Shown here: piece by piece, positions 5,987 through 23,636 of the stretch
Layout of the letters: the number at the start of each line of letters is the position of its first letter
How positions within the stretch are numbered: the stretch's first letter is position 1
Origin: Streptomyces diastatochromogenes
Lineage (GTDB): Bacteria; Actinomycetota; Actinomycetes; Streptomycetales; Streptomycetaceae
Direction of reading: 5' to 3'
Length of the DNA stretch: 64,000 bases
Assembly (NCBI GenBank): GCA_001418405.1
Contig: LIQL01000039.1
Coordinates: 1 to 64,000, forward strand
Notes under the pieces: model-generated
The model's database searches: none
What the model saw: the letters and a program-made list of their open reading frames with translations, nothing else
What the model was told of the DNA's origin: nothing
Position numbers and translations under genes: made by a program

Positions 5987-6022
5987 GCTATGAAATCCTT
6001 TTGGGGTTGCCCCGGACGAATG

Positions 6023-7606
<1,584 letters not shown>

Positions 7607-9534: not shown

Positions 9535-9602
9535 CGACATTCAGGCGGGCGCCGCCGACTCATGCGCCCCGTCCGGCAGTCCGCAGGTCGGCGAAGACGC
9601 TC

Positions 9603-9630
9603 CGCCCCACCCCGAGCCCGGGGCGGGGCG
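9603..9630 (+). terminator. Hairpin after Endo H
   Basis: CGCCCCACCCC and GGGGCGGGGCG form an 11-bp stem with one G-T/mismatch around a 6-base loop, 69 bases after the Endo H stop. No long T-run follows, as is usual in Streptomyces terminators. Confidence 0.6.
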
Positions 9631-10191: not shown

Positions 10192-10220
10192 TTGATCCGT
10201 AATGGGTCAGTTTGTATAGG
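10192..10220 (+). promoter_or_regulatory. Probable housekeeping-type promoter
   Basis: TTGATC at 10192-10197 and TATAGG at 10215-10220 are separated by 17 bases, a good match to the sigma-70/HrdB consensus and unusually AT-rich for this DNA. It lies 52 bases upstream of the ATG at 10272. Confidence 0.6.
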
Positions 10221-10271
10221 TTTGGTGAACCGCTTCACGCGCTTTGCACCTCGAGAAGGGTTACGAGCTCC

Positions 10272-11144: not shown

Positions 11145-11312
11145 GGTCGCAGGAGGCCGCTCGGGACGAAGCCGGCGCGCGCGTGACGTGAGCCGCGTGC
11201 TCACGGTCTCCGGCCCCGTCACCTCCGCCCGGGCCTGCACGCGGGACCGCGCGACCGTCGGCCCGAACCGTCACGTCGGCTTCGGTGCGGAGTCCGCCCG
11301 TGCGTCCTGATC

Positions 11313-11338
11313 GGCGGCTGCTTCTCGGAGCAGCCGCC
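11313..11338 (+). terminator. Hairpin after the secreted-protein gene
   Basis: GGCGGCTGC and GCAGCCGCC form a perfect 9-bp stem with an 8-base loop. It lies between the convergent gene at 10272-11144 and the small minus-strand ORF ending at 11362, so it can serve both directions. Confidence 0.65.
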
Positions 11339-11361
11339 GCTCGCGGCTCCTGGCGCTCCCC

Positions 11362-11487
11362 TCAGGGCAGTTGACGGCCCCTCTTCGCCGACTGCCGGTT
11401 CCGCCCCTTGGTGTCCCACCACTCCTCCAACGCGGCGCGAACCAGGCGTACGAGTTGTCCGAGACGCTCGGGCTCCGCCATGTGCAT
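11362..11487 (-). CDS. Small hypothetical protein, 41 residues
   Basis: The frame reads MHMAEPERLGQLVRLVRAAL followed by EEWWDTKG and a basic tail. GGAAGG lies 6 bases before the ATG at 11487 (a second ATG is at 11481). The regular helix pattern and basic end look protein-like. It is downstream of the YeiH-type transporter gene in the same direction (98 bases apart). Function unknown. Confidence 0.45.
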   Translation of the reverse strand: MHMAEPERLGQLVRLVRAALEEWWDTKGRNRQSAKRGRQLP

Positions 11488-11585
11488 CGCCCACCTTCCA
11501 CCAGCTCCCGTGTGGGACGGCGTTGCTCCGCACTCGCGTCCGAGGCCGTGCGGTGCGTGCCGACGTGCCTCGGTGCGCGCGACCC

Positions 11586-12674
11586 TCACAAGTACCGGGT
11601 CAGGAACTGGACGGTCAAGCTGGTGACGGACACCACCAGCCACAGGCAGCCGCCGAGCAGCAGGGGGGCGGCGCCAGCGCGGCGCAGCTTGGCGGGTTCG
11701 GTGGACAGGCCGATGGCCGAGAGGGCGACGGTGATGAGGAAGACCGCGAGCGCGCTGAGCGGGCCGTGCGCGGCCTGCGGGACGAGTCCGGCGGTGTTCG
11801 CGGCCGCGAGGACGAGGAAGCCGCCGAGGAACCACGGCACCAGTCGGCCGACGCGGACCCGGCCGGGGAGCCCTTCCCCCGAACCTGCTGCGCCGGCGTC
11901 AGCCGTCCGCGCGCGGCGCCGGGCGAGGGCGGCGAGCCCCAGGCAGATCGGGATGATCAGCAACGTGCGCGCGAGTTTGACCACCACCGCGTAGTCGGCC
12001 GCCGGGCCGCCGTAGGTGGTGGCGGCGGCGACCACCGACGACATGTCGTTGACCGCAGTGCCGGCGAACAGGCCGAAGGCGTGCTGCCCCATTCCCAGCA
12101 GGTGCCCGAGGACGGGGAAGGTCAGCACCGCGGCGATGTTGAAGACGAAGATCGTGGAGACGGCGTAGGCGACCTCTGCCTCGGCCGCTCCGATGATCGG
12201 GGTGACCGCGGCGATCGCGGAGGCGCCGCAGATGCCGGTGCCCACCCCGATCAGGGTGCGCAGGTCGCGGACGACACCCAGGCGGCGTCCGATGCCGTAC
12301 GCCGCGGCCAGGCAGACCGCGAGGGTCACGAGCATCACCGGCAGCGAGCCGACACCGACCCGCAGCACCTGCCCCAGGGACAGTTGCGCGCCCAGTACCA
12401 CCACCGCGGCCTGGAGCACGCCGCGTCCGGCGAAGGTGATGCCGGGCCGCATCCGGGCGCCGGGCCGCGCCACGACCGCCACCAGCACCCCGAGCACGAT
12501 GCCGCTCACCGGCCCGCCGACGACGGGGACCAACCGACCCAGTGAGGTCGCGACGAGGGCGATCGCGACGGCGAGCGCGAGCCCGGGCAGCCGGTCGACG
12601 AGGGCCGCGCCGGGCTTTCGGGCGGGGGCGAGGTCGGGTGGGCGGGTTGGCCGGGGGAGGCTGGCGTCCTTCAT
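11586..12674 (-). CDS. YeiH-family putative sulfate/anion exporter
   Basis: 362 residues with about ten membrane helices. It belongs to the YeiH/UPF0324 family. Typical segments are VLGAQLSLGQVL (near 105), LIGVGTGICGASAIAAVTPI (near 140) and FAGTAVNDMSSVVAAATTYG (near 205), the conserved half-helices of this transporter fold. The start ATG 12674 is preferred because upstream codons are polar and unlike the family. It is divergent from a LysR regulator, the arrangement also seen for yeiE-yeiH in enterobacteria, so sulfite or sulfur-related control is plausible. The transported ion is not proven for the family. Confidence 0.85.
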   Translation of the reverse strand: MKDASLPRPTRPPDLAPARKPGAALVDRLPGLALAVAIALVATSLGRLVPVVGGPVSGIVLGVLVAVVARPGARMRPGITFAGRGVLQAAVVVLGAQLSLGQVLRVGVGSLPVMLVTLAVCLAAAYGIGRRLGVVRDLRTLIGVGTGICGASAIAAVTPIIGAAEAEVAYAVSTIFVFNIAAVLTFPVLGHLLGMGQHAFGLFAGTAVNDMSSVVAAATTYGGPAADYAVVVKLARTLLIIPICLGLAALARRRARTADAGAAGSGEGLPGRVRVGRLVPWFLGGFLVLAAANTAGLVPQAAHGPLSALAVFLITVALSAIGLSTEPAKLRRAGAAPLLLGGCLWLVVSVTSLTVQFLTRYL

Positions 12675-12730
12675 GATCACCACTCTGGGTGGCCGCGTGC
12701 TCGCCCTGTAGCCCCTGATCGTGCAGGAGG

Positions 12731-12749
12731 TCATAGCGTGCACGCATGA
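12731..12749. promoter_or_regulatory. Palindrome at the LysR start
   Basis: The 19-base stretch from TCATAGCG to GCATGA is a near-perfect palindrome centred on the perfect 10-mer GCGTGCACGC (12736-12745). It ends over the LysR ATG (12746) in the 71-base divergent region. It is a good candidate for LysR self-control and for control of the transporter gene. Confidence 0.5.
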
Positions 12750-13717
12750 CCGACTCATACGCTGGGGCTGTGACAGAGCCCTCCGCGTCCGACCGCCACT
12801 CCGTTCACCTGCCCCTGCGCACGCCCGACCTGGAGTCGCTGCGGCTCCTCGTCCTCGTGGCCGATCTCGGGAGCCTCGGCCGTGCGGCGGAACGGCTGCG
12901 GATCTCCCAACCGTCCGCCAGCCGCCGGCTGTCGACGTTGGAACGGGGGCTGGGACTGGTGCTGCTCGACCGGACCCGACGCGGCTCCCGGCTGACGCTG
13001 GCCGGGCAGGTCGTCACGGGACACGCCCGGTCCGTCCTGGCCGAACTGGACGATCTGCTCACCGGGGCCGGCAAGCTGCGCGATCGGCGGGAGGCCGAAC
13101 TGCGCGTCGCCGCGAGCCTCACCATCGCCGAGTACCTGCTGCCGACCTGGATCAGCGAACTGCGGAGCCGTCGGCCGGACCTGTACATCGGGCTACAGGT
13201 GACCAACAGCGAGCACGTGCCCGAACTGGTCGAAGCGGGCGAGGCAGACATCGGGTTCATCGAGGGACCGCGCCTGTCCCGCGTGATGTCCACGCGGCAG
13301 GTGGCCGAGGACCGGCTCGTCGTCGTGGTCGACCCCGGTCACCCGTGGGCGCGTCGCCGCGAGCCGCTGTCGGCACGGGAACTGTCCCGCACGCCGCTGG
13401 TGCTGCGGGAGAGCGGTTCCGGCACACGGCAGACCCTGGACCGCGCCCTGCACCTGGCCGGCTGCGACCGTGCGCGGCCCTTGGTCGAGCTCGGCTCGAC
13501 GGCCGCCGTGCGCGGCGCCGTGATCGCCGGCACCGGGCCGTCCGTCCTGAGCGAGCTGGCCGTCCGCGGGGACATCGTCGAGGGTCGGCTGACCCGCGTC
13601 GAGGTGGCGGGCGTCGACCTCACCCGCGACCTGCGCGCGGTCTGGCCGACCGGACGGCGCCTGGTGGGGCCGGCGGCGGAACTGGTCGCGGTGGCCCGGC
13701 GGGAGGTCGCCGTCTAG
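12746..13717 (+). CDS. LysR-family regulator next to the YeiH-type gene
   Basis: 323 residues. The DNA-binding domain begins at about residue 29 (LESLRLLVLVADLGSLGRAAE) with recognition helix ISQPSASRRLSTLE and wing LLDRTRRGSRLT. The effector domain matches the CysB/CbbR/YeiE branch, including LVVVVDPGHPWARR and LVLRESGSGTRQTLD, the latter a conserved ligand-loop motif. It has a 28-residue N-terminal extension; the start ATG 12746 lies within the palindrome. It likely controls the divergent transporter. It converges with the 3' fragment of the disrupted glyoxalase gene. Confidence 0.88.
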   Translation: MTDSYAGAVTEPSASDRHSVHLPLRTPDLESLRLLVLVADLGSLGRAAERLRISQPSASRRLSTLERGLGLVLLDRTRRGSRLTLAGQVVTGHARSVLAELDDLLTGAGKLRDRREAELRVAASLTIAEYLLPTWISELRSRRPDLYIGLQVTNSEHVPELVEAGEADIGFIEGPRLSRVMSTRQVAEDRLVVVVDPGHPWARRREPLSARELSRTPLVLRESGSGTRQTLDRALHLAGCDRARPLVELGSTAAVRGAVIAGTGPSVLSELAVRGDIVEGRLTRVEVAGVDLTRDLRAVWPTGRRLVGPAAELVAVARREVAV

Positions 13718-13900
13718 CGGCCTGCCTGTGCGGTGCCCGACGGACCGCGGCGCCCGTCGCGGTGAAAATCGGTGCCGCCGACGCTCGAAGCCGGGGGAGC
13801 GGCCGGCAGGACGATGCAGGGGGCGCACTCGCCCGGGCGCCCATGCGCCCGAGGGGGCTCCGCTCCGCGCCGCCCGTTCGTCGTGAGCGGGGCGGCTCGG

Positions 13901-13939
13901 TCAGTGGAGGCAGAGGCAGAACGGATGGCCCGCCGGGTC
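13901..13939 (-). pseudogene. 3' end of VOC/glyoxalase gene cut off by the integrated element
   Basis: Minus-strand codons read DPAGHPFCLCLH then TGA. This is the standard C-terminus of bleomycin-resistance/glyoxalase-like VOC proteins and exactly the piece missing from the gene at 23008-23361. The two parts share the bases GACCCG (minus strand), the crossover core. Confidence 0.85.
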
Positions 13940-13968
13940 TCCGAACGCTCCGGAACTAGCGTTCTGGA
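13934..13968. other. attL
   Basis: The crossover core CGGGTC is at 13934-13939. Left of it is chromosomal glyoxalase sequence, right of it the element half-site CCGAACGCTC (13941-13950), the exact reverse complement of GAGCGTTCGG at 23016-23025 at the other end. A further copy AGCGTTC at 13959-13965 extends the dyad. The integrase gene starts 10 bases later. Confidence 0.8.
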
Positions 13969-13977
13969 GGCCCCGTC

Positions 13978-15783
13978 GTGGCGGCAGCAACACAGGTCAG
14001 CGTGGACAAGGAACCCTTGCGCTCCAGCGAGGGCATGACTTCTTCTTCTGAGATCTCCCAGGGTGGGCAATCGGCTCACCAGACGCCGGGCATGGAGACC
14101 GTTGCCCGACTCAGGGGCGTACGTGCCGTGCGCCTGTCCGTGATGACCGACGAAACGACCTCCCCGGAGCGGCAGCGAGAGGCGGACGACATCGCTGCCG
14201 CCGCGCTGGGCATCGACTTCGACGGGGGCGAAGCCGTGGACCTGGACGTGAGCGCGTCCAAGGTGGGGCCGTTCGACCGGCCGGAGCTGGGCGCGTGGCT
14301 GGCCCGCCCGGCTGAGTTCGACGTGATCGTCTGGTGGCGCTTCGACCGTGCCATCCGCTCCATGAGCGACATGAACGACCTTGCGAAGTGGGCGCGCGAG
14401 CACCGGAAGATGCTGGTCTTCGCTGAGGGCATCGGCGGGGGCCGACTGGTCTTCGACTTCCGCAACCCCATGGACCCCATGAGCGAACTCATGATGATGA
14501 TGCTCGCCTTCGCGGCTCAGGTGGAGTCGGCCAGCATCCGGGACCGCGTTCTTGGCGCGCAGGCGGCTATGCGGAAGATGGCTTACCGATGGCGGGGCGG
14601 ACGGCCGACGTACGGCTACATGATCGCGGACATGCCGAAGGAGCACGGCGCGGGCAAGACCCTCGTTCCCGACCCGGCCGCCGTGAAGGTGATTGAGCGG
14701 ATCATCCGTGACCTGTTGTCCGGCAAAACGATCAACAAGATTTGTCAGGAACTCAAGGCGGAGAAGGTGCCGACTCCGCGTGATCACTGGTCCCTCAGCC
14801 AGGGTCGCGCGACGGGCGGGAAGACCGGCGGCGCGAAGGGGGAGACGACGCTCCGGGACGCGTTCAGTTGGGTTCCGTCCGTGGTCCGGAAGCTCCTGAC
14901 CTCCCCGGCGTTGCTGGGGTGGAAGCTGCACGGCGGCAAGCCGGTCCGGGACGCTGAGGGTGCCCCGATCATGCTGACGGAAGCGCCGATCCTCACCCGT
15001 GAGGAGTTCGACGCGATCGGCAGGCTCTTTGAGGACCGGAAGCTTGGCCCGCATGACCGGGTGGACCAGAAGTCCAAGCTCCTCCGGGTCATTCACTGCA
15101 ACGGGTGCGGCAGCCGGATGTACCACATGTCGAACAAGCGCAAGGGTGTGCAGCACGCTAGCTACAAGTGCACGGCGCACCTGACCGGCATCGTGTGCCC
15201 GGCGCCGGTCGCCATCCGCGCCGACTGGGTGGAGGAGTACGTGGAACGTGAGTTCCTGGCGCTGATAGGTGATCTCCAGACTCAGAAGACGATCGTTACG
15301 CCCGGATATGACCCGGCGCCCGAACTGGCCGCGACGCTGGCTGAGTTCAACGCACACCAGGAAGAGAAGGGGCGGCAGAAGTCGGCGGCCGCGAAGCGGG
15401 CATGGCAGGAGCGGGCGGATGCACTGGACAACCGCCTTGTCGTCTTGGAAGAGACCCCGGCCCGGCCGGAAAAGCGGGAAGTCGTGCCGACTGGCCGCAC
15501 GCTCCGGGAGGTCTGGGCGGAGTCGGAGGACCAGGGGAAGCGGCACTTGCTCCTTGAGGCGGGCGCGCGACTGATGATCAAGAAGGGGACGCGGGGCGGC
15601 TGGCGAACACTGGATGTGTCCCGCGTGAGTTTCGCCCTGGGCAACGGCTTCTTCCGGGAAGCCGCCGACGCGCTCATGGCACTCCGGGAGGAGCTTGCCT
15701 ACGAGACCCGCCCGGAGGCGCCCCAGGCACGTGGTACGGGGCTGAGGCTGTCGGAGACGGACGACTACGCGACGGCCGCATAG
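13978..15783 (+). CDS. int: Large serine recombinase (site-specific integrase)
   Basis: 601 residues. The catalytic domain begins near residue 47 with VRAVRLSVMTDETTSPERQR, where Ser54 is the expected nucleophile and the following Arg/Gln residues fit the family. WWRFDRAIRS and DPMSELMMMMLAFAAQVESASIRDR match the conserved catalytic core and long E helix. A recombinase domain with GKTLVPDPAAVKVIERI and TPALLGWKLHGG-like sequence follows, then a zinc ribbon (CNGCGSRMYH ... CTAHLTGIVC, residues 380-408) and a coiled-coil region. GTG 13978 follows GGAGG by 8 bases. It sits directly beside attL, as usual. It should recombine attP with a site in a VOC gene. Confidence 0.95.
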   Translation: MAAATQVSVDKEPLRSSEGMTSSSEISQGGQSAHQTPGMETVARLRGVRAVRLSVMTDETTSPERQREADDIAAAALGIDFDGGEAVDLDVSASKVGPFDRPELGAWLARPAEFDVIVWWRFDRAIRSMSDMNDLAKWAREHRKMLVFAEGIGGGRLVFDFRNPMDPMSELMMMMLAFAAQVESASIRDRVLGAQAAMRKMAYRWRGGRPTYGYMIADMPKEHGAGKTLVPDPAAVKVIERIIRDLLSGKTINKICQELKAEKVPTPRDHWSLSQGRATGGKTGGAKGETTLRDAFSWVPSVVRKLLTSPALLGWKLHGGKPVRDAEGAPIMLTEAPILTREEFDAIGRLFEDRKLGPHDRVDQKSKLLRVIHCNGCGSRMYHMSNKRKGVQHASYKCTAHLTGIVCPAPVAIRADWVEEYVEREFLALIGDLQTQKTIVTPGYDPAPELAATLAEFNAHQEEKGRQKSAAAKRAWQERADALDNRLVVLEETPARPEKREVVPTGRTLREVWAESEDQGKRHLLLEAGARLMIKKGTRGGWRTLDVSRVSFALGNGFFREAADALMALREELAYETRPEAPQARGTGLRLSETDDYATAA

Positions 15784-15803
15784 CCGAACTGAGCCCCGAA
15801 CAG

Positions 15804-15837
15804 GCCCCGTTGGTCACGGTGACCGGCGGGGCTTTTT
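15804..15837 (+). terminator. Rho-independent terminator after the integrase
   Basis: GCCCCG at 15804-15809 pairs with CGGGGC at 15827-15832, with the inner palindrome GGTCACGGTGACC, followed by five T. It ends the integrase transcript 20 bases after the stop. Confidence 0.85.
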
Positions 15838-15943
15838 CACGCCCTGTTTCGGATGTGGCGAGCGTCACTCGTATGTTCGGCGCGGGAAGTCGCTTCCAGG
15901 TAACGGCTGCGCTCTAGGTCGGGTGAGAGAGGCGGCGAGGCAG

Positions 15944-16013
15944 TGCACCACGTGGTGCAAAGGATCACCGAATCGCGTGACCCGGAGATCGCTAGCAATG
16001 CCTCACGTGAGGC
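15944..16013. promoter_or_regulatory. Two CACGTG-centred perfect palindromes
   Basis: TGCACCACGTGGTGCA (15944-15959) and GCCTCACGTGAGGC (16000-16013) are perfect palindromes with the same CACGTG centre, 55 bases centre to centre, close to five helical turns. They are strong candidates for operators of a dimeric repressor encoded by the element, for example the XRE-TPR protein. Confidence 0.5.
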
Positions 16014-16106
16014 GCTGCCCCCACTGGCGGGCAACCCGCTCCCCAGACCCGTGGTGAGCCGGGACAGGAGTCCCGGCAGGGGGACACGAAACCACAGGCC
16101 ACAGGG

Positions 16107-16133
16107 GGCTGTCCCCCTTGTCCCCCGTGTCCC
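16107..16133 (-). repeat. Three 9-bp iteron-like repeats, set 1
   Basis: On the minus strand the sequence is GGGACACGG, GGGACAAGG, GGGACAGCC, three head-to-tail 9-mers with the common core GGGACA. The same unit GGGACACGG recurs in set 2 at 17957-17983 in the opposite orientation. Confidence 0.65.
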
Positions 16134-16178
16134 GCCCATGGACCGGCTGACGCCTATCAACAGAGAGAGACCCAACTC

Positions 16179-16682
16179 ATGACGATGACCCATACCCAAG
16201 CGCTCCGGCGCGCGACTGAGCGGCTGGACGCTCCCCGCCCGGAGGGTGAGAAGTGGTCCACGGACTTCTTCCCCGGCAGGCGCGAACGACTCCTCAACTA
16301 CCTTGCACAGCAAGGCCGTTCAGGCGAATTCGGACCCCACTTCGAGGATCTCGCCGACCATCACGCCGTCCACATTCCCGGATGCGCGGAACGGACCATA
16401 CGGGCCCTGTTGGACGCCGTAGCCGACACCGGTCTACCGGTCGCCGCCGAGATCACGCCGGGCAAGGCGCCCCGCTTCGCACTGGGCGGCAGGCACGCCA
16501 CAGCGGGACTCCTGGATGCCCGGAGCGTGGTCCTGGCGGTCCTGGTCACCTACGCCGAGAACGGCCGTCAGGCTCCCGCTGAACTGGTCCACGCGGCCTA
16601 CCGGATGAGCTCATCTGGCACGCACGCGGCAGGGGTGGCGTTCCGGTTCGCTAAGGCGCTCCGCCGGATGGTGAGCGCATGA
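16179..16682 (+). CDS. Hypothetical protein paired with the DUF3631-like ATPase
   Basis: 167 residues, not recognised. It is mostly helical, with a possible winged-helix region around residues 45-85 (FGPHFEDLADHHAV ... ERTIRALLDAVADTG) and C-terminal helices. It starts at ATG 16179 and its stop overlaps the start of the next gene (ATGA), so the two are translationally coupled. Position ahead of the ATPase suggests a DNA-binding or loader partner; this is inference only. Confidence 0.75.
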   Translation: MTMTHTQALRRATERLDAPRPEGEKWSTDFFPGRRERLLNYLAQQGRSGEFGPHFEDLADHHAVHIPGCAERTIRALLDAVADTGLPVAAEITPGKAPRFALGGRHATAGLLDARSVVLAVLVTYAENGRQAPAELVHAAYRMSSSGTHAAGVAFRFAKALRRMVSA

Positions 16683-17950
16683 CGGCCCCGGATGCTCAGG
16701 CCGTTGTGGCGGCGCTCAAGGCTCAGGCCAAGGTGACTCCGGGCGGGGCCGACGCGCTAACGCAGGCGGAGAAGGCGCTCCGGCGCTTCGTGTGGTTTCC
16801 GGAGCCCCGTCACTTTGACGTGGTCACCCTGTGGGCGGCGTACACGCACCTGTTGACGCGCTGCCCTGATCTCCCGATCGCTCCGCGACTGGGCTTCTTC
16901 TCGGGTTCGCCCGGCAGCGGCAAGACACGCGCTCTGGAGATCCTGAGTCGCCTTGCCGCCAACGGTCAGGATGTGGGGTCGCTGTCGGCTGCCGCCATGC
17001 TGCGAATCATCGGCGCGGCAGCAACGGCCGACGAACCAGGCGCCCATCCCGTGACGCTATTCCCCGACGAACTGGACCGGACGTACTCCGCGAACTCAGC
17101 GGGAAATCAGGATGACTTGACGATCATTCTGAACTCTGGATACAAGCGCGGTGCCGTCGTAGTCAGGGCCCATAAGGACAAGCAACAGGAGGTGATCCGG
17201 TACCCCTGCTTTGGGCCGGTCGCTTTCGCTGGACTGGCCACAGCGCGGCTGCCGGACGCATTGCTGACCCGTACCTTTGTCGTCCACACGAAGCGGGCCC
17301 GACCGGAGGAACGCCCGGACTCCTTCCTGCCCGTCGCTCATCAAGACGACTTGACCAACGTCCGTGCCTCACTGGCTGATTGGGCGGCAGAGTCGGCGCT
17401 CAGGATCAGCGAACCGGCGGACATGTTGGCGCTGTTGCTGGACGAACGCATTACGGCCGTGACGGACGGGCGGGACCATGAAATCTGGTCGTGCCTGTTC
17501 CTGACTGCTGTTCTGGCGGGCGGTGTCTGGCCGGAGCGCTGTCTAGCGGCAATTGAGGCAGCCAAGGAGGACACGGCGGACCGAATGGACCGTTCACCGT
17601 CCGCACGACTCCTCACCACACTGAGGCGCCATTACAGCTCCCGTCCGGCTGAGGTGTGGCCGGTCGGAATCAGTAAGGAAGACATCGCCTCTACGGCAAT
17701 CGACCTGGACCCGCTGACCTTTGAACGCTTCGACGGCCGCGAGGAACTCCGATCGGCGGACGTAGCCGACCTGTTGAGGGAGCACGGGCTCAAACAGGTC
17801 CGTGTCCGAACGGCGCATGGCCGCTCGTACGGCTATCGCTGGTCGGCTCTCCGGGACGCGTGGGAACGCGCATTGCCGCCACTGGTCGAGACCGACGAAG
17901 ACGACGGTCCCGAAGACGAATCAGGGGCAACCGTCTCGCTCTTCCGATGA
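16679..17950 (+). CDS. P-loop ATPase, DUF3631-like (phage/ICE replication type)
   Basis: 423 residues. Walker A is GSPGSGKT at 76-83, Walker B is TLFPDELD at 126-133, and PVAFAGLATARLPDALLTRTFVV near 180 fits the sensor region with an arginine finger. This family often forms the helicase-like half of primase-helicase proteins in actinobacterial prophages and integrative elements, so a role in element replication is likely. No primase domain is present here. It overlaps the previous ORF by 4 bases. Set 2 of the 9-bp repeats begins 7 bases after its stop. Confidence 0.8.
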   Translation: MTAPDAQAVVAALKAQAKVTPGGADALTQAEKALRRFVWFPEPRHFDVVTLWAAYTHLLTRCPDLPIAPRLGFFSGSPGSGKTRALEILSRLAANGQDVGSLSAAAMLRIIGAAATADEPGAHPVTLFPDELDRTYSANSAGNQDDLTIILNSGYKRGAVVVRAHKDKQQEVIRYPCFGPVAFAGLATARLPDALLTRTFVVHTKRARPEERPDSFLPVAHQDDLTNVRASLADWAAESALRISEPADMLALLLDERITAVTDGRDHEIWSCLFLTAVLAGGVWPERCLAAIEAAKEDTADRMDRSPSARLLTTLRRHYSSRPAEVWPVGISKEDIASTAIDLDPLTFERFDGREELRSADVADLLREHGLKQVRVRTAHGRSYGYRWSALRDAWERALPPLVETDEDDGPEDESGATVSLFR

Positions 17951-17956
17951 GCGAGG

Positions 17957-17983
17957 GGGACAACAGGGACCACAGGGACACGG
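17957..17983 (+). repeat. Three 9-bp iteron-like repeats, set 2
   Basis: GGGACAACA, GGGACCACA, GGGACACGG in exact 9-base phase directly after the ATPase stop. The core and the unit GGGACACGG match set 1 (minus strand, 16107-16133). Confidence 0.65.
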
Positions 17984-18037
17984 CACGAAGACGCAGGTCA
18001 ACAGCCTATGCCGTGTCCCTCTGTTGTGCCGTGTCCC
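17975..18037 (+). promoter_or_regulatory. Alternative stem-loops in the capsid gene leader
   Basis: GGGACACGGCA (17975-17985) can pair with either of two identical copies of TGCCGTGTCCC (18009-18019 and 18027-18037). The two mutually exclusive hairpins lie 45 bases ahead of the TTG start of the protease-capsid gene, so they could regulate its translation or readthrough, or mark a packaging/origin site. Confidence 0.5.
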
Positions 18038-18081
18038 GCTCACTCACCGGGACCCATCCAAGGAAAGAAGAGGAACCCACC

Positions 18082-19707
18082 TTGTCCAACGTGCTCAGGC
18101 GCACGGCGCCGCATGCCGTATCTCTCCGAAGTGCCGGAGGGGTGCGCACCATCACCGGATACGCGATCCGGTTCAACGAACTCAGCAGCGATCTAGGCGG
18201 ATTCCGCGAGCGAATCACCTATGACGCGTGGAACCCGTCGGCAAGCCGGACGGATGTTCTCGCGACGTTCAACCACAACGCCGACAACGTTCTAGGGCGC
18301 GTCTCCGCTGGAACCCTCCGCTTGTTCCGCGACCTTGAGGGAATCCGCTACGAAATCGATTTGCCGAATACCCGGGCCGGTGAGGACGTGGCGGAATTGA
18401 TCAACAGGCGTGATGTGATCGGCAGCTCTTTCACGTTCCGCGTGAAGCCAGACGGCCAGAAGCGTGCCGGAATCGATGCCGTGAGCGGACTCCCCATCCG
18501 TGAGATCACCTCAATGGAAGTCTACGAGTTGGGCCCCGTGACGAACCCTGCCTACCCGACCACAAGCGCGAATTCACGCGCCCTTGACATTCTGTACCCG
18601 ATGGAAAGCGAGTCCCGCATGAATGACGCCCCTATCCGTACCGGCGCCGGTTTCCTGCCGGTCAACCGTCGCAGCATTGCTTCCGGTGCGCACTGGGAGG
18701 CGACCGAACCGGCTGCCCTGTGGGTCAACCTGGTTGGACCGAAGTCCCGCTTCCTGGCGAGCATTCCTCAGTCCAACAAGCTGCCCATGCATGAAGCCGC
18801 GATGACGCTTCCGGCGATCAAAACGGGTGACGGCGGCTACACGGATGTGAACACCTCTATTCCGGAGCCGGATACCGCAATCACGTCGCGTACGGCACGG
18901 GCAACCAAGTTCGGGGCACTGGAGAAGGCGACTTCCGAAGTGCTCCAGGATATGCGTCCGGACCTTACGGCCGGTATCAATCAGTCGATTGCCGCTGCAC
19001 TGGCACGCGCTATCGACAAGGGCCTGTTCAACGGCGCCGGACCGGCGGACCCCAACGACAACCGCCGCGTAATTGGCCTACTTGCCCAGGGCGACACGAA
19101 GCACATAGCCCCGTCCATTGCCGAGATCAGTGCTGCTCTTGAGCGACTGGAGAATTCCGACGCTGAGGCAACGGTCCTGTGGGTTGACCCGTCCGCCGCG
19201 AAGGCCCTGCGCGGGGAAGTGTCTGCCACGGATTGGGAGAAGGGAATCTATGGTCTCAAGCCGGTCGTGACGCGGCACCTTCCCGCCAACACGGCGGTCA
19301 TCGCGGACACTTCGCGCATCTTTGTGGGTCTGCACTCCGGTATTTCTATCGCCGTGTCTCGCGTCGCTCCGGGTGCCTTCTCAGAAGACCGTGTTCTCTT
19401 CCGTGCTCTGGCTCGCGTTGCGGGTGTTTGGGTGCAGGAATCGGGATCGGTTCAGATCATCAGCTCGACGCTTCCGGACAATAAGCCGAACCTTCTGGCG
19501 TTCGCGGATCAGCCTGAACTCGACCTGAATCACCCGAAGATGATTGCCGCCCAGCAAGACCAGCACGCCGCCGAATATGCCGCGTACACGGCCCTGCCCC
19601 GCGCGGAGAAGAACGCCCGAATGCAGACCGCCCAGAAGTTTAACGACGACCAGGCCACTCAGGACCGGGTCCGGCGGCAGCGTGTACGGGCCAAGGAGCA
19701 GTCATGA
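18082..19707 (+). CDS. HK97-type prohead protease fused to major capsid protein
   Basis: 541 residues. Residues 11-170 are an HK97 prohead protease: TITGYAIRFNELSSDLGGF, then FNHNADNVLGRVSAGTLRL with catalytic His65, then DVIGSSFTFRV with Ser115/116 as nucleophile and ELGPVTNPAYPTTSA. Residues 195-510 are an HK97-fold major capsid protein (SQSN-type N-arm, LEKATSEVLQDMRPDL helix, FRALARVAGVWVQESG near the end). In most phages these are two genes. TTG 18082 follows GAGGAA by 7 bases; GTG 18091 is an alternative. With no portal or terminase in the element, packaging would need a helper. Confidence 0.9.
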   Translation: MSNVLRRTAPHAVSLRSAGGVRTITGYAIRFNELSSDLGGFRERITYDAWNPSASRTDVLATFNHNADNVLGRVSAGTLRLFRDLEGIRYEIDLPNTRAGEDVAELINRRDVIGSSFTFRVKPDGQKRAGIDAVSGLPIREITSMEVYELGPVTNPAYPTTSANSRALDILYPMESESRMNDAPIRTGAGFLPVNRRSIASGAHWEATEPAALWVNLVGPKSRFLASIPQSNKLPMHEAAMTLPAIKTGDGGYTDVNTSIPEPDTAITSRTARATKFGALEKATSEVLQDMRPDLTAGINQSIAAALARAIDKGLFNGAGPADPNDNRRVIGLLAQGDTKHIAPSIAEISAALERLENSDAEATVLWVDPSAAKALRGEVSATDWEKGIYGLKPVVTRHLPANTAVIADTSRIFVGLHSGISIAVSRVAPGAFSEDRVLFRALARVAGVWVQESGSVQIISSTLPDNKPNLLAFADQPELDLNHPKMIAAQQDQHAAEYAAYTALPRAEKNARMQTAQKFNDDQATQDRVRRQRVRAKEQS

Positions 19708-19979
19708 ACCTGAGATTCAACAGGGAACAGAGAAGGGCAGCGGCAGAGCTGGACATCATGGCTGAACAGGCCTGGCGTCCGAATGAGTGGCCGTGTGAGG
19801 GTGAATGCCACGGACAGTGGAGTGACAAGGCGCTGTTCAATCTCTGGCGCCCCTGGGACCTTCGAATGCTGGGCGTGTCATTCAATCAGGAGAATTCCCG
19901 TGCTGGGTTCGTTCCGGTCTGTGGGCCGTGCTCCGACACGTCCCATGAGCGGTTCTACTGGGCACGGGAGAAGTGGTGA
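19704..19979 (+). CDS. Small Cys-rich protein downstream of the capsid gene
   Basis: 91 residues. It overlaps the capsid stop (ATGA at 19704). Two Cys pairs, CEGEC at 30-34 and CGPC near 73-76, could bind a zinc ion; Trp content is high. The N-terminus is basic and helical. Not recognised. Position suggests a capsid-associated or regulatory role, but this is inference. Confidence 0.7.
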   Translation: MNLRFNREQRRAAAELDIMAEQAWRPNEWPCEGECHGQWSDKALFNLWRPWDLRMLGVSFNQENSRAGFVPVCGPCSDTSHERFYWAREKW

Positions 19980-20359
19980 CGAGAAGATGGGTATTGAAGG
20001 TGCGTGCCACGCTGGCGGATTGGTGGGCCGTTGTAGTCAACCTGTGCCGGTGGCGTGGCCGTTCTCCTCAGCGTGAACCGCTCCTTGCCAAAATAGCGGC
20101 CCATCTCTCTGAGATTGGCGAGCGCGGTTATCCAATTCGCTGTGAGCGATGCGACGGTACAGGCCACGTGTCCGCCGTCGTGCTGGCATGGACCACACCC
20201 ATTCAGAAGGGCGGCAGGAGGGAACGGTACAACGTCCACGCATCGTGTCTCGGGTGCTGGCGTGAGACTGGCCGGACTGATGGCTTGCCCGTGCTGGAAG
20301 GTTCGCTCATTCATCGGCGCGATACTCCGAAGAAGGACGCGGTAATCGTCTGCCTTTGA
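19973..20359 (+). CDS. Small protein with CxxCxGxG zinc motif
   Basis: 128 residues. The motif CERCDGTGHV (about 57-66) with CLGCW (about 92-96) resembles a DnaJ-type or zinc-ribbon site. The basic N-terminus MVTRRWVLKVRATLADWW is followed by a helical stretch. GTG 19973 overlaps the previous gene's stop, so it is translationally coupled. Function unknown. Confidence 0.65.
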   Translation: MVTRRWVLKVRATLADWWAVVVNLCRWRGRSPQREPLLAKIAAHLSEIGERGYPIRCERCDGTGHVSAVVLAWTTPIQKGGRRERYNVHASCLGCWRETGRTDGLPVLEGSLIHRRDTPKKDAVIVCL

Positions 20360-20694
20360 GGTCTGGGCAGGGGCTGGGCGGCTTGAAAGTTCAGACGGCA
20401 TGCCCGCTGGCGATCCCGGCTCCAGCTCGAAATACGCACCCTGGGTGTGACGCTGTTTTTTGGGCCTCCAGACAATGAACACCACTGACCTATAAGGGAG
20501 TTCGTCGTCTCCCGGTCAGGAGAACGGCCTTCTTAAGGGGTTGTTAAGCCCCCTGTAGGCACCTTGAACGCGCCGGTAGATCCGGCGAAGCGCACCTGGC
20601 TCCCGTGGCTGCCCCTTTGCTGGGGGTGGCTGCGGGAGCTTTCGCGTGTCCGGGCACCCTCGGCGGGCATACGCTGGATGGGAGGTGAGCACTG
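20360..20694. other. Intergenic region between the late-type genes and the XRE-TPR gene
   Basis: 335 bases without a gene. A hairpin AGGGG...CCCCT lies at 20536-20554, and a strong hairpin GCTCCCG...CGGGAGC at 20600-20639 is followed by TTT, a likely terminator. The XRE-TPR gene has the ribosome binding site GGGAGGTGAG just before its ATG. Confidence 0.5.
20600..20642 (+). terminator. Hairpin terminator after the capsid operon
   Basis: GCTCCCG (20600-20606) pairs with CGGGAGC (20633-20639), with an inner CCCC/GGGG pairing, and TTT follows. It separates the capsid block from the regulator gene. Confidence 0.6.
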
Positions 20695-21936
20695 ATGTCC
20701 ACAGGATTGGCTGACAACGTCAGGAAGTACCGCCGCACGGCCGGTCTGAGCCAGGAAGGTCTAGCCGAAGTGGCTGACCTCTCGCTGAGCACCGTTCGCA
20801 AGGTTGAGCAGGGTGGGCACGTGAGCATGGAGACCCTTGCGTCTCTCGCCCGCGCGCTGGGGGTCTCCACTTCAGCCCTCTTCGCCAGTGAGGCGCCAAA
20901 GTCTGTGCTCGGAACGGAGGATGAGGCGAACCGCCGATACCTTGCTGAGCTCCGACGCGCCCTAATGCCGCCCATCGGGCTTGCCGCGCCCCTCGCAGAG
21001 GCTGGTGAAGCCGGAGAGGTGTCCGCCATTCGGCAAGGCGTACAGGACGGCCACGCGCTCTACCAGGCAGACCGGTACACATCCGTTGCCAGGAAGCTAC
21101 CTGGCTTGCTGCGCTCCTCCGAGGCTGCCGTGTTGATCCTTGAGGGCGAAGACCAGCAGCACGCCATGGTTGCCCGCTCCCACGCGCTGTTGCTCACGGG
21201 CAAGTACTTGACGCAAGTCAGGCAGTACGACATGGCTTACTTCGCGCTCGCTGAGGCGATCCGACTTGCCCGGGAGGCTGGCCAAACTCAGTTGGCAGCA
21301 ACGGGAGTTGTGGGGCTGTGCTGGCTGCTGTTGAGGCAGGACCGATTCGACGAAAGCGAGCACCTGGCAGCGCAGACGGCAGGGGACGTCGAACCTCGCA
21401 TGTCCGATGCGACACCCGCGCGCCTTGCTGTGTGGGGTGAGCTGTGGCTCAGGGTCGCTGCGGCAGCCATGCGGAACAATCGGCCGGACGAGGCGCAGGA
21501 GGCCCGCAGGATGGCGCGCACAGCCGGGGGTGCCCTGAACAGCGAACACGCGGAGTTCCCAGCGCACTGGAGCGCCTTCGGCCCCGTGACCGCTGAAGCA
21601 AAGGCGATCGAAGACCTGTCACTGATCGGTGACGCGCGGGGTGTCCTGCGTCGAGCTGATGACGGGCCGCTCAGCTCCAACGGGCTTCGAAACTATGGGA
21701 AGTTGAGCGCGAACAACTGGGGACGTCACCGGCTGGATGTAGCCCGTGCCCACGTCGTGCTCGGGTCCCACCAGGACGCTATGGACGAGCTGTTGCAGCT
21801 CCGCCGAACGTCCGGCGAGTGGCTGACCCATCAGCCCATGGCGCGGCGCGTGATGACGGACCTACTCAAGACACGCAAGCGGACGCTGACCGAAGACATG
21901 CGCAGCATGGCGGTTCACCTTAGGGTCACTGGATAG
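20695..21936 (+). CDS. XRE-family regulator with TPR-like C-terminal domain
   Basis: 413 residues. Residues 5-62 are a Cro/CI-type helix-turn-helix (RKYRRTAGLSQEGLAEVADL, then SLSTVRKVEQGG, then LASLARALGVSTSALF). The remaining 340 residues are helical repeats of TPR type, a layout common in Streptomyces elements and in peptide-sensing regulators. ATG 20695 follows GGGAGGTGAG. It is the probable control protein of the element; the operators could be the palindromes at 15944-16013 or 22704-22745. Confidence 0.85.
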   Translation: MSTGLADNVRKYRRTAGLSQEGLAEVADLSLSTVRKVEQGGHVSMETLASLARALGVSTSALFASEAPKSVLGTEDEANRRYLAELRRALMPPIGLAAPLAEAGEAGEVSAIRQGVQDGHALYQADRYTSVARKLPGLLRSSEAAVLILEGEDQQHAMVARSHALLLTGKYLTQVRQYDMAYFALAEAIRLAREAGQTQLAATGVVGLCWLLLRQDRFDESEHLAAQTAGDVEPRMSDATPARLAVWGELWLRVAAAAMRNNRPDEAQEARRMARTAGGALNSEHAEFPAHWSAFGPVTAEAKAIEDLSLIGDARGVLRRADDGPLSSNGLRNYGKLSANNWGRHRLDVARAHVVLGSHQDAMDELLQLRRTSGEWLTHQPMARRVMTDLLKTRKRTLTEDMRSMAVHLRVTG

Positions 21937-21965
21937 GTACGGCGCAGCGTGGTGGTTCGGTGGCC

Positions 21966-21994
21966 TTGATCGCTGAACTACCGTTCTGCATACG
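21966..21994 (+). promoter_or_regulatory. Probable promoter for the two small ORFs
   Basis: TTGATC (21966-21971) and CATACG (21989-21994) are spaced by 17 bases, 62 bases before the GTG at 22057. The -35 hexamer matches that of the promoter at 10192. Confidence 0.4.
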
Positions 21995-22056
21995 TGGATT
22001 GGCCCTCTTCTGGCTCGTACGGTCCCTGTATCGACCAGCGGACCGAGGGGGCCGAG

Positions 22057-22446
22057 GTGACAGAGAGAACTGAGGGCGACCGGGAGCGACGGCGCGACCT
22101 GGCCGACGCAGCGTCAGGCGTACCGCCCCGGTTGCTGCCATGGGCCAGGGATGGGAAGGCGTGCTACCTCAGCACGGACGGCGGACCGCACAGCTTCCTG
22201 TCCCGCCTTGCTGACGACATGGAAAGCGTCCAGCTTGAGGCAGGCGCGGAAGTTCTGGAGACGGCGTGCAAGGTGCTGGACGACCCCATGTCGCCGCACG
22301 CTGAGGTGAGGTACGCGGCGGTCCGTTTGTCTGAATGCCTAGGCGACGCTCTGAGGGTCGCCGAGAGCCGGGGCGCGCGCATCCCAGAACCGGACGACGA
22401 GGTCACCGAGAACGGTCCGACGCTGCCCGCTGAGGCGTTCGGATGA
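22057..22446 (+). CDS. Hypothetical protein of the element
   Basis: 129 residues, mainly helical and acidic at both ends. Not recognised. GTG 22057 follows GAGGGG by 6 bases. Its stop overlaps the start of the next ORF, so both form one operon. Central region LADDMESVQLEAGAEVLETA and AAVRLSECLGDALRVAESRG are amphipathic helices. Confidence 0.65.
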   Translation: MTERTEGDRERRRDLADAASGVPPRLLPWARDGKACYLSTDGGPHSFLSRLADDMESVQLEAGAEVLETACKVLDDPMSPHAEVRYAAVRLSECLGDALRVAESRGARIPEPDDEVTENGPTLPAEAFG

Positions 22447-22643
22447 TCACGGCAGCCGATATCGGCCAGCGGGTTACGGATGCTGCGGGACGTGTTGGCA
22501 TCCTGCGGGACGTGATCAAGGACTTTGAGGACCCCGCCGAATCGCCCGGCGAGCGGCGTAAGCAGACGGTTGCGTTCATCTGGCCCGAACGCGGGGGCCG
22601 TGAGTGGATGGCTCCCCCGGCCAGCGTGAAACGCACTGGATAG
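22443..22643 (+). CDS. Small hypothetical protein (66 residues), possible SH3/KOW-like fold
   Basis: It begins MITAADIGQRVTDAAGRVG and continues with ILRDVIKDFEDP, KQTVAFIWPERGGREWMAPP. Short beta strands with Gly turns suggest a small SH3/KOW-like barrel, seen in small ORFs of actinobacterial elements. It overlaps the preceding ORF by 4 bases. A recombination directionality factor or accessory role is possible from position near attR but not shown. Confidence 0.6.
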   Translation: MITAADIGQRVTDAAGRVGILRDVIKDFEDPAESPGERRKQTVAFIWPERGGREWMAPPASVKRTG

Positions 22644-22650
22644 ATTCCCG

Positions 22651-22692
22651 ACCCCGCTGCCGGTTCCCCTTGGCAGTGGTCCCCAGCGGGGT
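22651..22692 (+). terminator. Hairpin after the small-ORF operon
   Basis: ACCCCGCTG (22651-22659) and CAGCGGGGT (22684-22692) form a perfect 9-bp stem, with an internal GCC/GGC pairing in the loop. Confidence 0.6.
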
Positions 22693-22703
22693 TCGGGTTG
22701 GCT

Positions 22704-22745
22704 CCGCTCCGGTGTGCTCAGTGGGGACTCAGGGCACCGGAGCGG
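22704..22745. repeat. 11-bp perfect inverted repeat near the right end
   Basis: CCGCTCCGGTG (22704-22714) and CACCGGAGCGG (22735-22745) with a 20-base spacer. It lies between the terminator and a weak ORF near attR; it may be an operator or an accessory recombination site. Confidence 0.45.
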
Positions 22746-22767
22746 GCAAGGTCCGGCACGCGGAGCG

Positions 22768-22986
22768 ATGGCGAGTAAGACAGCTCAGCGCGTCGGGTGG
22801 GCGACGTCTCCGACCGGACAAGCCCCGGCCAGGGACAGGACGTGTCCCGTCTGCGTTGACGTGCGCAGGCTCCCGCCCCGGTCCGCCTCTTCGCTGAGGT
22901 GCCGCGCAAGCGGTGAGGACGTAGCCAGCGACCCCGGTTCAGCGCTTTCCCTTGGGCGCTGGATCGGGGCATTCTGCTGCCGCTGA
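22768..22986 (+). CDS. Doubtful small ORF with a CPVC motif
   Basis: 72 residues; GGAGCG precedes the ATG directly. It reads MASKTAQRVGWATSPTGQAP, then RTCPVCVDVRRLPP. Only one Cys pair and a low-complexity tail; no family recognised. Third-position G+C is weak. It would be the last gene before attR. Listed as a possibility only. Confidence 0.25.
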   Translation: MASKTAQRVGWATSPTGQAPARDRTCPVCVDVRRLPPRSASSLRCRASGEDVASDPGSALSLGRWIGAFCCR

Positions 22987-23000
22987 CCAGCCGATAAGCT

Positions 23001-23028
23001 AGAACGGTCAGTTGAGAGCGTTCGGGTC
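23001..23028. other. attR
   Basis: The element half-site GAGCGTTCGG is at 23016-23025 and the core CGGGTC at 23023-23028; to the right the glyoxalase gene continues on the minus strand. Joined to attL, the element halves give GAGCGTTCGG-GTCT-CCGAACGCTC, a perfect 10-bp dyad, with outer AGAACG (23001-23006) facing CGTTCT (13961-13966). Confidence 0.8.
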
Positions 23029-23361
23029 CGCGTAGACCCTCCAGTTGGCCCCCGGACGGATCTGGTCCGTGCGCTCCAAGACGGTCGCGCCGAGGGCGAG
23101 CACCCGCTTCTCCTCCCCGTCGAGGTCGTCCACGTCGAAGTCCAAGTGGAGCTGTTGCGGGCGCTGTTGACCGGGCCAATCGGGTGGTCGGTAGCCGTCC
23201 ACCCGTTGGCAGGCCAGCGGCGTCCCCGCAAACCCCTGCACCTCGACCCATCCGGGATCCTCCGGGTCCGCGACCACCCGGCCGCCGAGCAGTTCCGCGT
23301 AGAACTCCGCGAGCCGTACCGGATCGGCGCAGTCCAGCGCGACCGCTTGCAGCTTCCGCAT
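23008..23361 (-). pseudogene. VOC/glyoxalase-family gene, 3' end replaced by element sequence
   Basis: 117 codons. MRKLQAVALDCADPVRLAEF, then QQLHLDFDVDDLDGEE and GANWRVYADP are typical of a single-domain vicinal-oxygen-chelate (bleomycin-resistance/glyoxalase-like) protein. After YADP the frame leaves the gene at the crossover and adds NALN and a stop from the element. The native C-terminus (AGHPFCLCLH) is at 13901-13939. VOC metal-site residues lie before the break, so partial function cannot be excluded, but the last strand is lost. Start ATG 23361, possible GTG 23364. Confidence 0.85.
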
Positions 23362-23636
23362 CACTTCCGACAGCCCTCGCTCTCCGGTCACTTCCACCAC
23401 GTCCCGTGCGACAGGGACGTACCCGCCGCAGCGGCGGACATGCGCGACCCGAACCCCCATCGAACGGACCACGGTGCGTGACGAGGGCGTGCCGATCAAG
23501 CAGGATCGGGCGGGCGCGCCGATTCCGCCCCACGCGATGGGGAAGACGGCGCGCCGGCCTTCAACGAGCGGCGCCGACCTCCCCGTCGGGGCCGTTGACC
23601 GGGAGCGCAGCTCCAGTACGGAAGTCGGTGGCAACG

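Follow-up and report, generated by a model that had tools for sequence, protein, structure and literature searches.

The DNA analysed here is a 64,000-nucleotide stretch of Streptomyces diastatochromogenes (assembly GCA_001418405.1, contig LIQL01000039.1, positions 1 to 64,000; hereafter the window). It holds an integrated element of 9,089 bp, which an earlier note on this DNA had proposed to be a phiRv1-like, capsid-encoding phage satellite. We observed that the element carries a cos site of the kind found in phiC31, which serves as the model phage for Streptomyces and has supplied integration tools now in wide use, and we consider it probably to be a cos-packaged satellite of such phages. 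Stretches fetched for comparison are numbered L and the genomes sampled are numbered G; G000 is the source genome and C numbers are its contigs.

The element lies between two copies of the 5-bp core GGGTC, at 13935–13939 (attL, left end) and 23024–23028 (attR, right end), and the limits of 13937–23028 proposed for it earlier were almost exact. It splits a host gene for a VOC/glyoxalase-like protein on the minus strand. The N-terminal part (23029–23394, start approximate; Glyoxalase_6, 1.8e-22) stands at the right end of the element, and the last 12 codons with the stop (13901–13939) at the left end. The N-terminal part is 84–85% identical to the intact genes of two relatives, G001 and G030, and the short left part matches them as well. 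In both relatives (L043 and L042, respectively), the glyoxalase-family gene runs uninterrupted across the core, as ...CTACGCG-GACCC-GGCCGGCCATCC..., and thus provides the empty site. The core at both ends and this empty site define an integrated mobile element with clear limits, which its serine integrase placed into the glyoxalase-family gene. An element of 9,324 bp is present in the homologous VOC gene of Streptomyces abikoensis (L024), at the same core; it is the closest named relative, and its integrase is 84% identical to that of the element.

The gene order, all on the plus strand, is a large serine integrase, a 167-aa protein, a DUF3631 ATPase, a protease-capsid fusion, two Cys-rich proteins, an XRE-family regulator and two small proteins. 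The integrase (13978–15783) matched Pfam Resolvase (3.7e-16), Recombinase (2.9e-13) and Zn_ribbon_recom, and the PHROGs integrase family phrog_95 (1.3e-86). The fusion matched Peptidase_S78 (6.3e-38) and Phage_capsid (3.5e-15), and in PHROGs the head maturation protease (3.8e-36) and major head protein (5e-20). The regulator (20695–21936) matched HTH_3 (1.5e-11), a transcriptional regulator family (phrog_5823, 1.8e-128) and, weakly, TPR families. The gene content read from the letters alone was thus recovered with Pfam and PHROGs, the Cys-rich proteins as open reading frames (ORFs). No terminase, portal, tail or lysis family was matched by the nine element proteins in Pfam, PHROGs or NCBIfam (E<=0.1), a scan that small connector-type proteins without a family could escape. 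The phiC31 TerL, TerS (large and small terminase subunits), portal and tail proteins gave no tblastn match at 1e-3 in the whole window. As had been claimed, these modules went undetected, and the element is without the genes for a complete phage.

The 167-aa protein (16179–16682), with no match in Pfam, PHROGs or NCBIfam and no assigned function, is 74% identical in L024 and 71% identical in L025 (from S. lavendulae), and adjoins the ATPase gene there too. The DUF3631 ATPase (16679–17950; PF12307, 8.3e-16) is 29–33% identical to three proteins of a plasmid collection. It is most likely a replication protein, because two of these relatives, on Streptomyces plasmids, adjoin a primase/polymerase gene. 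Two more DUF3631 proteins in the source genome (G000:C256:1215-1766 and G000:C288:2372-2935) match the family far more strongly than that of the element and perhaps belong to other integrated elements; the same search found none in 14 control genomes.

We compared non-synonymous (dN) and synonymous (dS) divergence between the element and its relatives. In the comparison with L024, dN was 0.09–0.19 and dS 0.80–1.18 for the integrase, 167-aa protein, ATPase and capsid fusion. Against L025, whose integrase is only 25% identical, the latter three genes showed dN of 0.13–0.21 and dS of 0.94–1.43. The dN/dS ratios of ~0.09–0.22 (167-aa protein, ATPase and fusion against both relatives, integrase against L024) indicate that these genes are being kept and are not decaying. 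The gene of the second Cys-rich protein (cys2) evolves faster (dN 0.60, dS 1.3–1.8).

Since the nearest relatives of the fusion's protease part are in phiC31-type phages, we compared the cos junctions of these phages with the element. After the second Cys-rich gene, the element reads GGCGATCCCGGCTCCAGCTCGAAATACGCACCCTGGGTG, as against AGCGATCCCGGCCCCAGCTCGGAAAACGCGCGCTAGGTG in phiC31. The predicted 10-nt cohesive end of the element is CCCGGCTCCA (20415–20424, plus strand); in the four phages compared it is CCCGGCCCCA. The phiC31 record opens with the latter sequence and those of TG1, Vash and Sebastisaurus close with it, which agrees with a cohesive end of 10 nt. In GenBank X91149.1, the depositors annotated the 'cohesive ends' of phiC31 on the same bases, beginning CCCGGCCCCA, and the best phage match of the element spans them. 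The left box AAAGTTC (20386–20392, plus strand) begins 25 nt before CGATCCC, and a helper-type right arm, CGCACCCTGGGTGTG, the proposed TerS site by motif comparison, is located at 20435–20449 on the plus strand. The gene context also agrees: an HNH-type gene and then cos, as in phiC31-type phages, where TerS comes next.

A cos profile was built from the four phages and six full prophages, with the window excluded. It matched 20360–20470 on the plus strand at E=9.4e-20 (nhmmer), the sole match in 64 kb at E<=1; the best match on reversed sequences had E=3.8. Each of 11 related loci gave one match (E from 6e-25 to 0.0066); seven of these loci had been found by capsid or cys2 similarity and four (L131, L132, L134 and L136) by cos pattern. 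When a 116-base cos query was run against 50,697 phage records, it returned the phiC31 cos record X91149.1 at 1e-5 and a weak match to a Pseudomonas phage (0.3). Most phiC31-type phage records break at cos, so a full-length match to them is impossible, and a better-conserved satellite cos does give such split matches.

An 18-base cos core was also searched in 392 genomes. With one mismatch allowed, 101 of the 392 matched; the reversed control matched dozens too, so the single-mismatch places are mostly due to chance. Six of them were inspected beside the known ones (G206, G025 twice, G238, G367, and G121, which was already a satellite). Of these, three were dropped: those in G238 and G367 (L143, L144), which lie within or next to large ORFs and match the cos model only weakly (0.018), and the second of the two in G025 (L138), which has no cos-model match. 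Twelve matches were exact: six in full phiC31-like prophages, five in terminase-less elements and one in G259 (L133), which we attributed to chance, as it showed no integrase, phage homologue or cos-model match.

A phiC31-like prophage with open late genes was found in contig C8 of the source genome. Its proteins compare with those of phiC31 as follows: integrase 39%, HNH 60%, TerS 75%, TerL 80%, portal 75%, protease 58% and capsid 64% identity. It also has cos, tail genes, a partial endolysin match, an exonuclease and a primase, up to near the end of the contig; gp45 was not matched in it, and the polymerase would fall beyond the contig end. Thus, the element carries the packaging signal of a potential helper (phiC31-type cos, 9.4e-20), and a prophage of that type is in the same genome. 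The S78 protease was found at two places only in the source genome, the element and the C8 prophage. The same two places were the only matches there to a model of the left-and-core part of cos (R1; the match to the element is by construction). Co-residence itself is no argument, since a phiC31-like TerL was found in 6 of the 392 genomes of the genus and in 1 of the 12 known satellite-bearing genomes among them (G000, G025, G046, G083, G085, G090, G121, G206, G210, G250, G264 and G272), too few for an enrichment. In another phiC31-like prophage (L139, from G224), the portal gene is split into two called ORFs at 13075–14445; this prophage may be defective or misassembled.

The protease-capsid fusion lies at 18082–19707 on the plus strand, the TTG start being our choice, with the protease at ~18139–18576 and the HK97-type capsid domain at ~18799–19440. 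The capsid domain is near full-length (HK97 profile positions 37–272 of 280). The same fusion was found in seven elements in all (this one, L024, L025, L027, L028, L031 and L032), the other hosts being S. abikoensis, S. lavendulae, S. lycii, G121, G090 and G272; in G090 and G272 the capsid is of a distinct type. No terminase or portal was detected in any of them, and a cos-like site follows the fusion in each, weakly in L025 (E 0.0066) and L031 (E 0.0045). The protease part is 53–62% identical to those of phiC31-like phages and prophages, and the capsid half is 23% identical over 222 aa to the capsid protein of the resident prophage and ~24% identical to that of phiC31-type phages, which have a separate capsid gene. 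When the fusion was searched against viral contigs, the best 80 of 130 matching loci covered the protease part only.

In the protease tree, satellites and phiC31-like phages group together (87/81), and the 10 phiC31-like proteases are united in a separate clade (100/99) that excludes the satellites. By this one protein, the satellites are thus not nested within phiC31-like phage diversity, whereas remnants of such prophages would be. Because they fall outside the phage clade, the satellites are, for this gene and as far as the tree goes, an old sister lineage and not recent wrecks of phiC31 prophages. Related elements with full tail and packaging modules would have argued that the present copy is merely decayed. 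The portal- and tail-bearing regions that we fetched have a separate protease and a capsid 21–26% identical to that of the element, and the fused gene was seen only in the seven terminase-less elements. Six prophages (L033, L034, L036, L038, L039 and L040) likewise have a separate protease, and their capsids are nearer to that of phiC31 (28–37%) than to that of the satellite (24–26% where matched). This capsid and protease comparison covered fetched regions; G277, G346, G066, G162, G335 and G315 are on record as matches only.

The second Cys-rich protein (cys2; 19973–20359, plus strand) is encoded immediately before cos, where the four phiC31-type phages inspected have an HNH endonuclease. The satellite Cys-rich family aligned with phage HNH proteins across 63 columns in a profile-profile comparison (E=1.7e-5), which brought CxxC, GG, N and CxxC into register. 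The profile of five satellite proteins also matched the HNH protein of the resident C8 prophage at 2.5e-6. At the catalytic positions, DH is replaced by AW in the element and CH by CW. In six of seven satellite rows, DH has become AW or GW and CH has become CW; the most divergent, L135, has YW and CI. Owing to this alignment and the replaced residues, the protein appears to be an HNH homologue whose active site has been lost (hereafter pseudo-HNH). No relative was found among viral contigs and no match among named phage records; the ATPase gave one weak match (5e-4) in the latter. It is established that HNH proteins take part in cos packaging, also in that of the Staphylococcus aureus pathogenicity islands (SaPIs), as reported by Quiles-Puchalt in 2014. 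In L135 (9491–10456) and L282 (9235–10059), a gene of the pseudo-HNH family and a separate phage-type HNH gene stand in a row before cos, and these arrangements are possible intermediates.

We then used the R1 model, made from the window, 12 other satellites and six prophages with the right arm unused, to search 355 genomes that partly overlap the 392. It returned 57 places, 31 of them at E<=1.8e-4. Of these 31, 28 were fetched, the other three being the two in the source genome and one in G206 already in the set; the 26 weaker places lay outside the analysis. The fetched stretches comprised four full prophages (L264, L267, L269 and L270) and 21 that were counted as elements; L291 was dropped (cos E 0.69), as were L268 and L271, which are the same as L027 and L024. 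In total, 34 cos-bearing elements, this one included, had no phiC31-like TerL or portal in the stretch fetched (14–21 kb, cos mostly near the middle; the present element was judged on its 64-kb window). They are spread over three genera of the family (g1, g20 and g27). A capsid homologue is present in 15 (a fragment only in L266) and a serine integrase nearby in 31 (in two pieces in L277); L285, with an integrase fragment, and L266 and L281, with no integrase match, were kept in the count. Terminase, portal and tail families of other than phiC31 type were not seen in the part of the element ORFs that was scanned. This part comprised 138 ORFs of 11 elements against PHROGs and Pfam, among the 25 commonest of 123 and 65 families, and single ORFs, ten and eight by PHROGs and, by Pfam, twenty of the larger ORFs without an assignment close to the elements added later.

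A TerS-like gene directly follows cos in 8 of the 34 elements (L024, L025, L027, L031, L032, L135, L136 and L284). The encoded proteins, seven of which were aligned, match phage TerS at E=2.9e-12 over 55 columns, and this match is confined to their C-terminal part. Their N-terminal part differs from that of phage TerS and has a Cys motif, which is perhaps zinc-binding. The presence of this gene went together with a change in cos. A right-arm motif, CT[AG][AG]GT[GA], ~17 bases right of the predicted cohesive end, was present in 26/26 elements without the TerS-like gene, 11/11 prophages and 4/4 phages, and in 0/8 elements with it; seven of these eight have GTCCGT in its place. L280 was counted among the elements without TerS; it has a weak TerS-like match (5.3e-5) in another ORF, upstream of cos. 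The motif was written after the sequences had been seen, and 21 of the 34 elements came from the search that was blind to the right arm. We became aware of the pattern with the initial 12 elements; L137 and the 21 added later (1 with and 20 without TerS) all fit it. We do not lean on the Fisher p value of 5.5e-8, as the elements are related and at least eight share a host neighbourhood. The pairing of the TerS-like gene with a different right arm points to this arm as the TerS site, and the simplest reading is that satellites either keep this arm or replace it together with TerS. The present element is of the TerS-less kind and keeps the right arm of the helper.

At least eight of the TerS-less elements (L272–L276, L280, L287 and L289), in several genomes of two genera, have a host gene of one kind, for a 610–655-aa thioredoxin/NHL-repeat protein, a few kb away; L278, L281 and L290 are perhaps beside it too, by ORF length only. 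This points to common descent with a shared integration site, or to an insertion inherited from long ago, and the element counts are therefore not independent events.

Taken together, we read the element, with a probability of roughly 0.8, as an integrated satellite that phiC31-type phages package through its cos site. When such a phage enters, or a resident prophage is induced, the integrase with a directionality factor would excise the element, and the DUF3631 ATPase and the 167-aa protein would drive its replication into concatemers. The TerS–TerL of the helper would recognize the helper-type right arm of cos, cut to leave the 10-nt cohesive end and fill a prohead containing the satellite capsid protein and the portal of the helper, and helper tails would complete the particle. 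The pseudo-HNH may replace, or compete with, the HNH protein of the helper in the packaging complex. In elements with the TerS-like gene, a new N-terminal Cys-motif domain, joined to the helper-like C-terminal part, goes with the different right arm. The earlier note had missed three things: cos, the descent of the second Cys-rich protein from HNH proteins and the presence of a phiC31-like prophage in the same genome. A wider picture is tentative, and we doubt that all of it will hold. It would be an old, large radiation of satellites in at least three Streptomycetaceae genera, dedicated to phiC31-type phages, in which the TerS site of the helper on cos is either kept or swapped together with a chimeric TerS whose C-terminal part docks on the helper TerL. 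The dead HNH of this element would favour satellite DNA in the packaging complex, and its protease-capsid fusion would make small heads on a stolen portal.

Several observations weigh against the satellite reading. The element is known from sequence alone, and its packaging, excision and induction are inferred here. Eleven of the 12 satellite-bearing genomes named above gave no phiC31-like TerL, and S. abikoensis, S. lavendulae and S. lycii have no TerL close to that of phiC31 (best 28%); satellite-bearing genomes without a close helper are described as not unusual (PMC11389934). The predicted cohesive end has one mismatch to that of phiC31. The phiC31 repressor sites (CIR) are missing save for one 10-bp core, and the 17-bp site was not found in the element at <=4 mismatches. 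The cys2 profile gave similar E-values for other proteins encoded well away from cos, at 24 places in 19 of the 392 genomes, and its matches are therefore evidence for an HNH-type ancestry and not for a packaging role. AlphaFold gave a pLDDT (predicted local distance difference test) of 44 on three pseudo-HNH sequences; the fold was not confirmed and the model was not used. With its low identity of ~23% to the prophage capsid, the capsid half may not fit a helper portal. L035 has a related capsid gene (32%) and no phiC31-type cos match, so capsid and cos do not always travel together. Finally, the cos counts are uncorrected for kinship and come from partial samples, and at least 8 of the 26 TerS-less elements have a host gene of one kind as their neighbour.

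The element could alternatively be the remnant of a prophage, phiC31-like or other, as its protease part is close to phiC31-type phages and its integrase is 51–54% identical to those of three full phiC31-like prophages (L140, L141 and L270). Yet the same gene block is present in S. abikoensis and S. lavendulae with dN/dS of ~0.1–0.2, cos and the genes are intact, terminase-less cos elements share layouts, and the satellite proteases stand outside the phiC31-like clade. We rejected decay on account of the purifying selection, the recurrence and the protease tree, and regard it as highly improbable. Hardly any probability goes to an element of the actinomycete integrative and conjugative type that has acquired a capsid gene and moves by conjugation, not in particles. 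The resemblance of the ATPase to those of the two Streptomyces plasmids speaks for it, as these carry a TraB or FtsK gene as well as the primase/polymerase. However, no FtsK/TraB-type transfer protein was matched among the element proteins in Pfam, PHROGs or NCBIfam, and we know of no role of a cos site in conjugation.

Granting the satellite reading, two roles of the capsid protein have to be weighed. The earlier note had proposed that the element is packaged in a small capsid of its own with the terminase and tail of a helper. The use of a helper terminase and tail is supported at the level of sequence (cos, context, terminase-less relatives and purifying selection); a capsid of its own is a proposal only, and a role like that of Ccm in SaPIbov5 fits the same data. 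That the fused protein forms a whole small shell round the portal of the helper has, in our estimate, a little under an even chance. The near full-length HK97 domain with its own S78 protease and the purifying selection on the fusion are in its favour. Against it, no portal or head-tail connector gene was detected, both of which are encoded by capsid-forming phage-inducible chromosomal islands (cf-PICIs; PMC10690885). In the other role, which we also take seriously though at somewhat longer odds than even, the satellite protein would co-assemble with the capsid protein of the helper, for example as pentamers, and shrink the helper prohead. This is what Ccm of SaPIbov5 does: 24% identical to the helper capsid protein, it takes the pentamer positions in helper shells and makes no shells alone (PMC8569155). 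The identity of the element's capsid half to the resident prophage capsid is near that of Ccm to the phi12 capsid protein (PMC8569155), SaPIbov5 likewise pairs a helper-type cos with a capsid homologue (PMC5052747, PMC8569155), and no portal is detectable in the element, which must therefore obtain one from elsewhere. On the other hand, the protein is fused to its own protease in seven elements, whereas PMC8569155 identifies no protease in SaPIbov5, and several distinct capsid types occur among the elements. The protease fusion argues for more autonomy than that of Ccm, and the missing portal for less than that of a cf-PICI. By volume scaling, 9.1 kb of DNA would suit a head well below the size of that of a 41-kb phage.

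The element shares with the cos-type SaPIs (SaPIbov4/5, with Ccm) a helper-type cos and a capsid homologue without a portal; to our knowledge, SaPIbov4/5 have no portal gene. It is unlike them in having a serine integrase, located in a Streptomyces protein gene, the protease-capsid fusion, a pseudo-HNH beside cos, other replication genes and a phiC31-type helper. The gene order of PICIs, with a tyrosine integrase and divergent regulators, differs from the serine integrase and single co-directional XRE regulator found here. Its size of 9,089 bp, serine integrase and capsid gene are of the phiRv1 type, phiRv1 itself being ~9 kb with a serine integrase. Compared to the phiC31-type phages (C31, TG1, Vash and Sebastisaurus), it shares the cos sequence, the HNH–cos order and the protease; these are full phages of ~41 kb and differ in their separate capsid gene. 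The mycobacterial candidate PICIs, with phiRv1 and phiRv2, also combine an integrase and a capsid gene, a likeness of size and content, and the excerpts of PMC10654092 give no cos link to a helper for them. cf-PICIs have a satellite-encoded capsid protein and protease and an HNH-family gene, as does the element, and in addition a portal, connectors and both terminase subunits (PMC10690885); none of the latter was detected here, within the limit for small connectors given above. MulchRoom and MiniFlayer are Streptomyces satellites with their own capsid genes too; in contrast to the element, they encode both terminase subunits, portal and scaffold, and have virulent phages as hosts (PMC10690885). 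The eight TerS-bearing relatives have parallels in EcCICFT073, an Escherichia coli PICI whose cos has a different cosB and which has a putative capsid gene (PMC6092414), and in the pac SaPIs, whose TerS works with the helper TerL (PMC5052747). They differ from both in their TerS-like protein, with its helper-like C-terminal and other N-terminal part, and the element itself has no TerS. PmCI172 also has a capsid homologue. A survey of actinobacterial prophages assumes that many elements <15 kb are satellites and states that experimental validation lags in actinobacteria (PMC10023795).

Satellites with cos and a capsid homologue (SaPIbov5, EcCICFT073), Streptomyces satellites with full head modules and mycobacterial candidate PICIs, phiRv1 included, are therefore already known. 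We found no satellites of phiC31-type phages in the open-access literature searched, most subscription papers being outside that search. As far as this literature goes, three things are new: the tie to phiC31-type phages, the combination of a protease-capsid fusion and a pseudo-HNH, and the joint replacement of TerS and the cos arm. The element and a candidate helper are present in one Streptomyces genome, and cos predicts the exact ends of the packaged DNA. The 34 natural variants make it testable which part of cos the small terminase reads and how satellites re-aim it.

Other features of these elements are as follows. Fourteen of the cos-bearing stretches (L131, L134, L137, L273, L275–L280, L283, L287, L289 and L290) have a serine integrase and a phiC31-type cos, sometimes with HNH and XRE genes; no capsid homologue was found in them and they appear smaller. 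They look like minimal cos satellites. A ~190-aa ORF related to serine recombinases lies just before cos in L134, L275, L277, L278, L279, L280 and L283, and further away in L288. In L275, it is a full-length protein of DNA-invertase type (phrog_125, 4e-70); a second small recombinase beside cos is odd. L274 and L284, from one genome (G540), have capsid genes 69–70% identical to that of L136, one with and one without a TerS-like gene. In L035 (G104), at 5506–13537, a serine integrase and a regulator accompany a capsid protein with 32% identity to that of the element, and no portal or terminase was matched among the five ORFs scanned; this stretch is perhaps a satellite cousin with another helper.

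Within the element, the 10-bp core shared with the phiC31 repressor site, the palindrome CTCACGTGAG, is located at 16002–16011, upstream of the replication-type genes; its chance expectation is 0.13 per 64 kb, and it is not in the L024 and L025 spacers. A TGTCCC-rich repeat (D4) follows at 16110–16146, again upstream of these genes, with TGTCCC stretches at the equivalent place in L024 and L025. A second TGTCCC/GGGACA block (repeats D4 and I1), an imperfect inverted repeat between the ATPase and capsid genes (17944–18050), is similar in both relatives. The first, small Cys-rich protein (19704–19979, plus strand) has no family match, and the last small ORF (22443–22643, plus strand) no convincing one. 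The protein encoded at 22057–22446 on the plus strand, with a start of our choosing, is a conserved satellite protein, 46–53% identical over 101–112 aa in L027 and L136.

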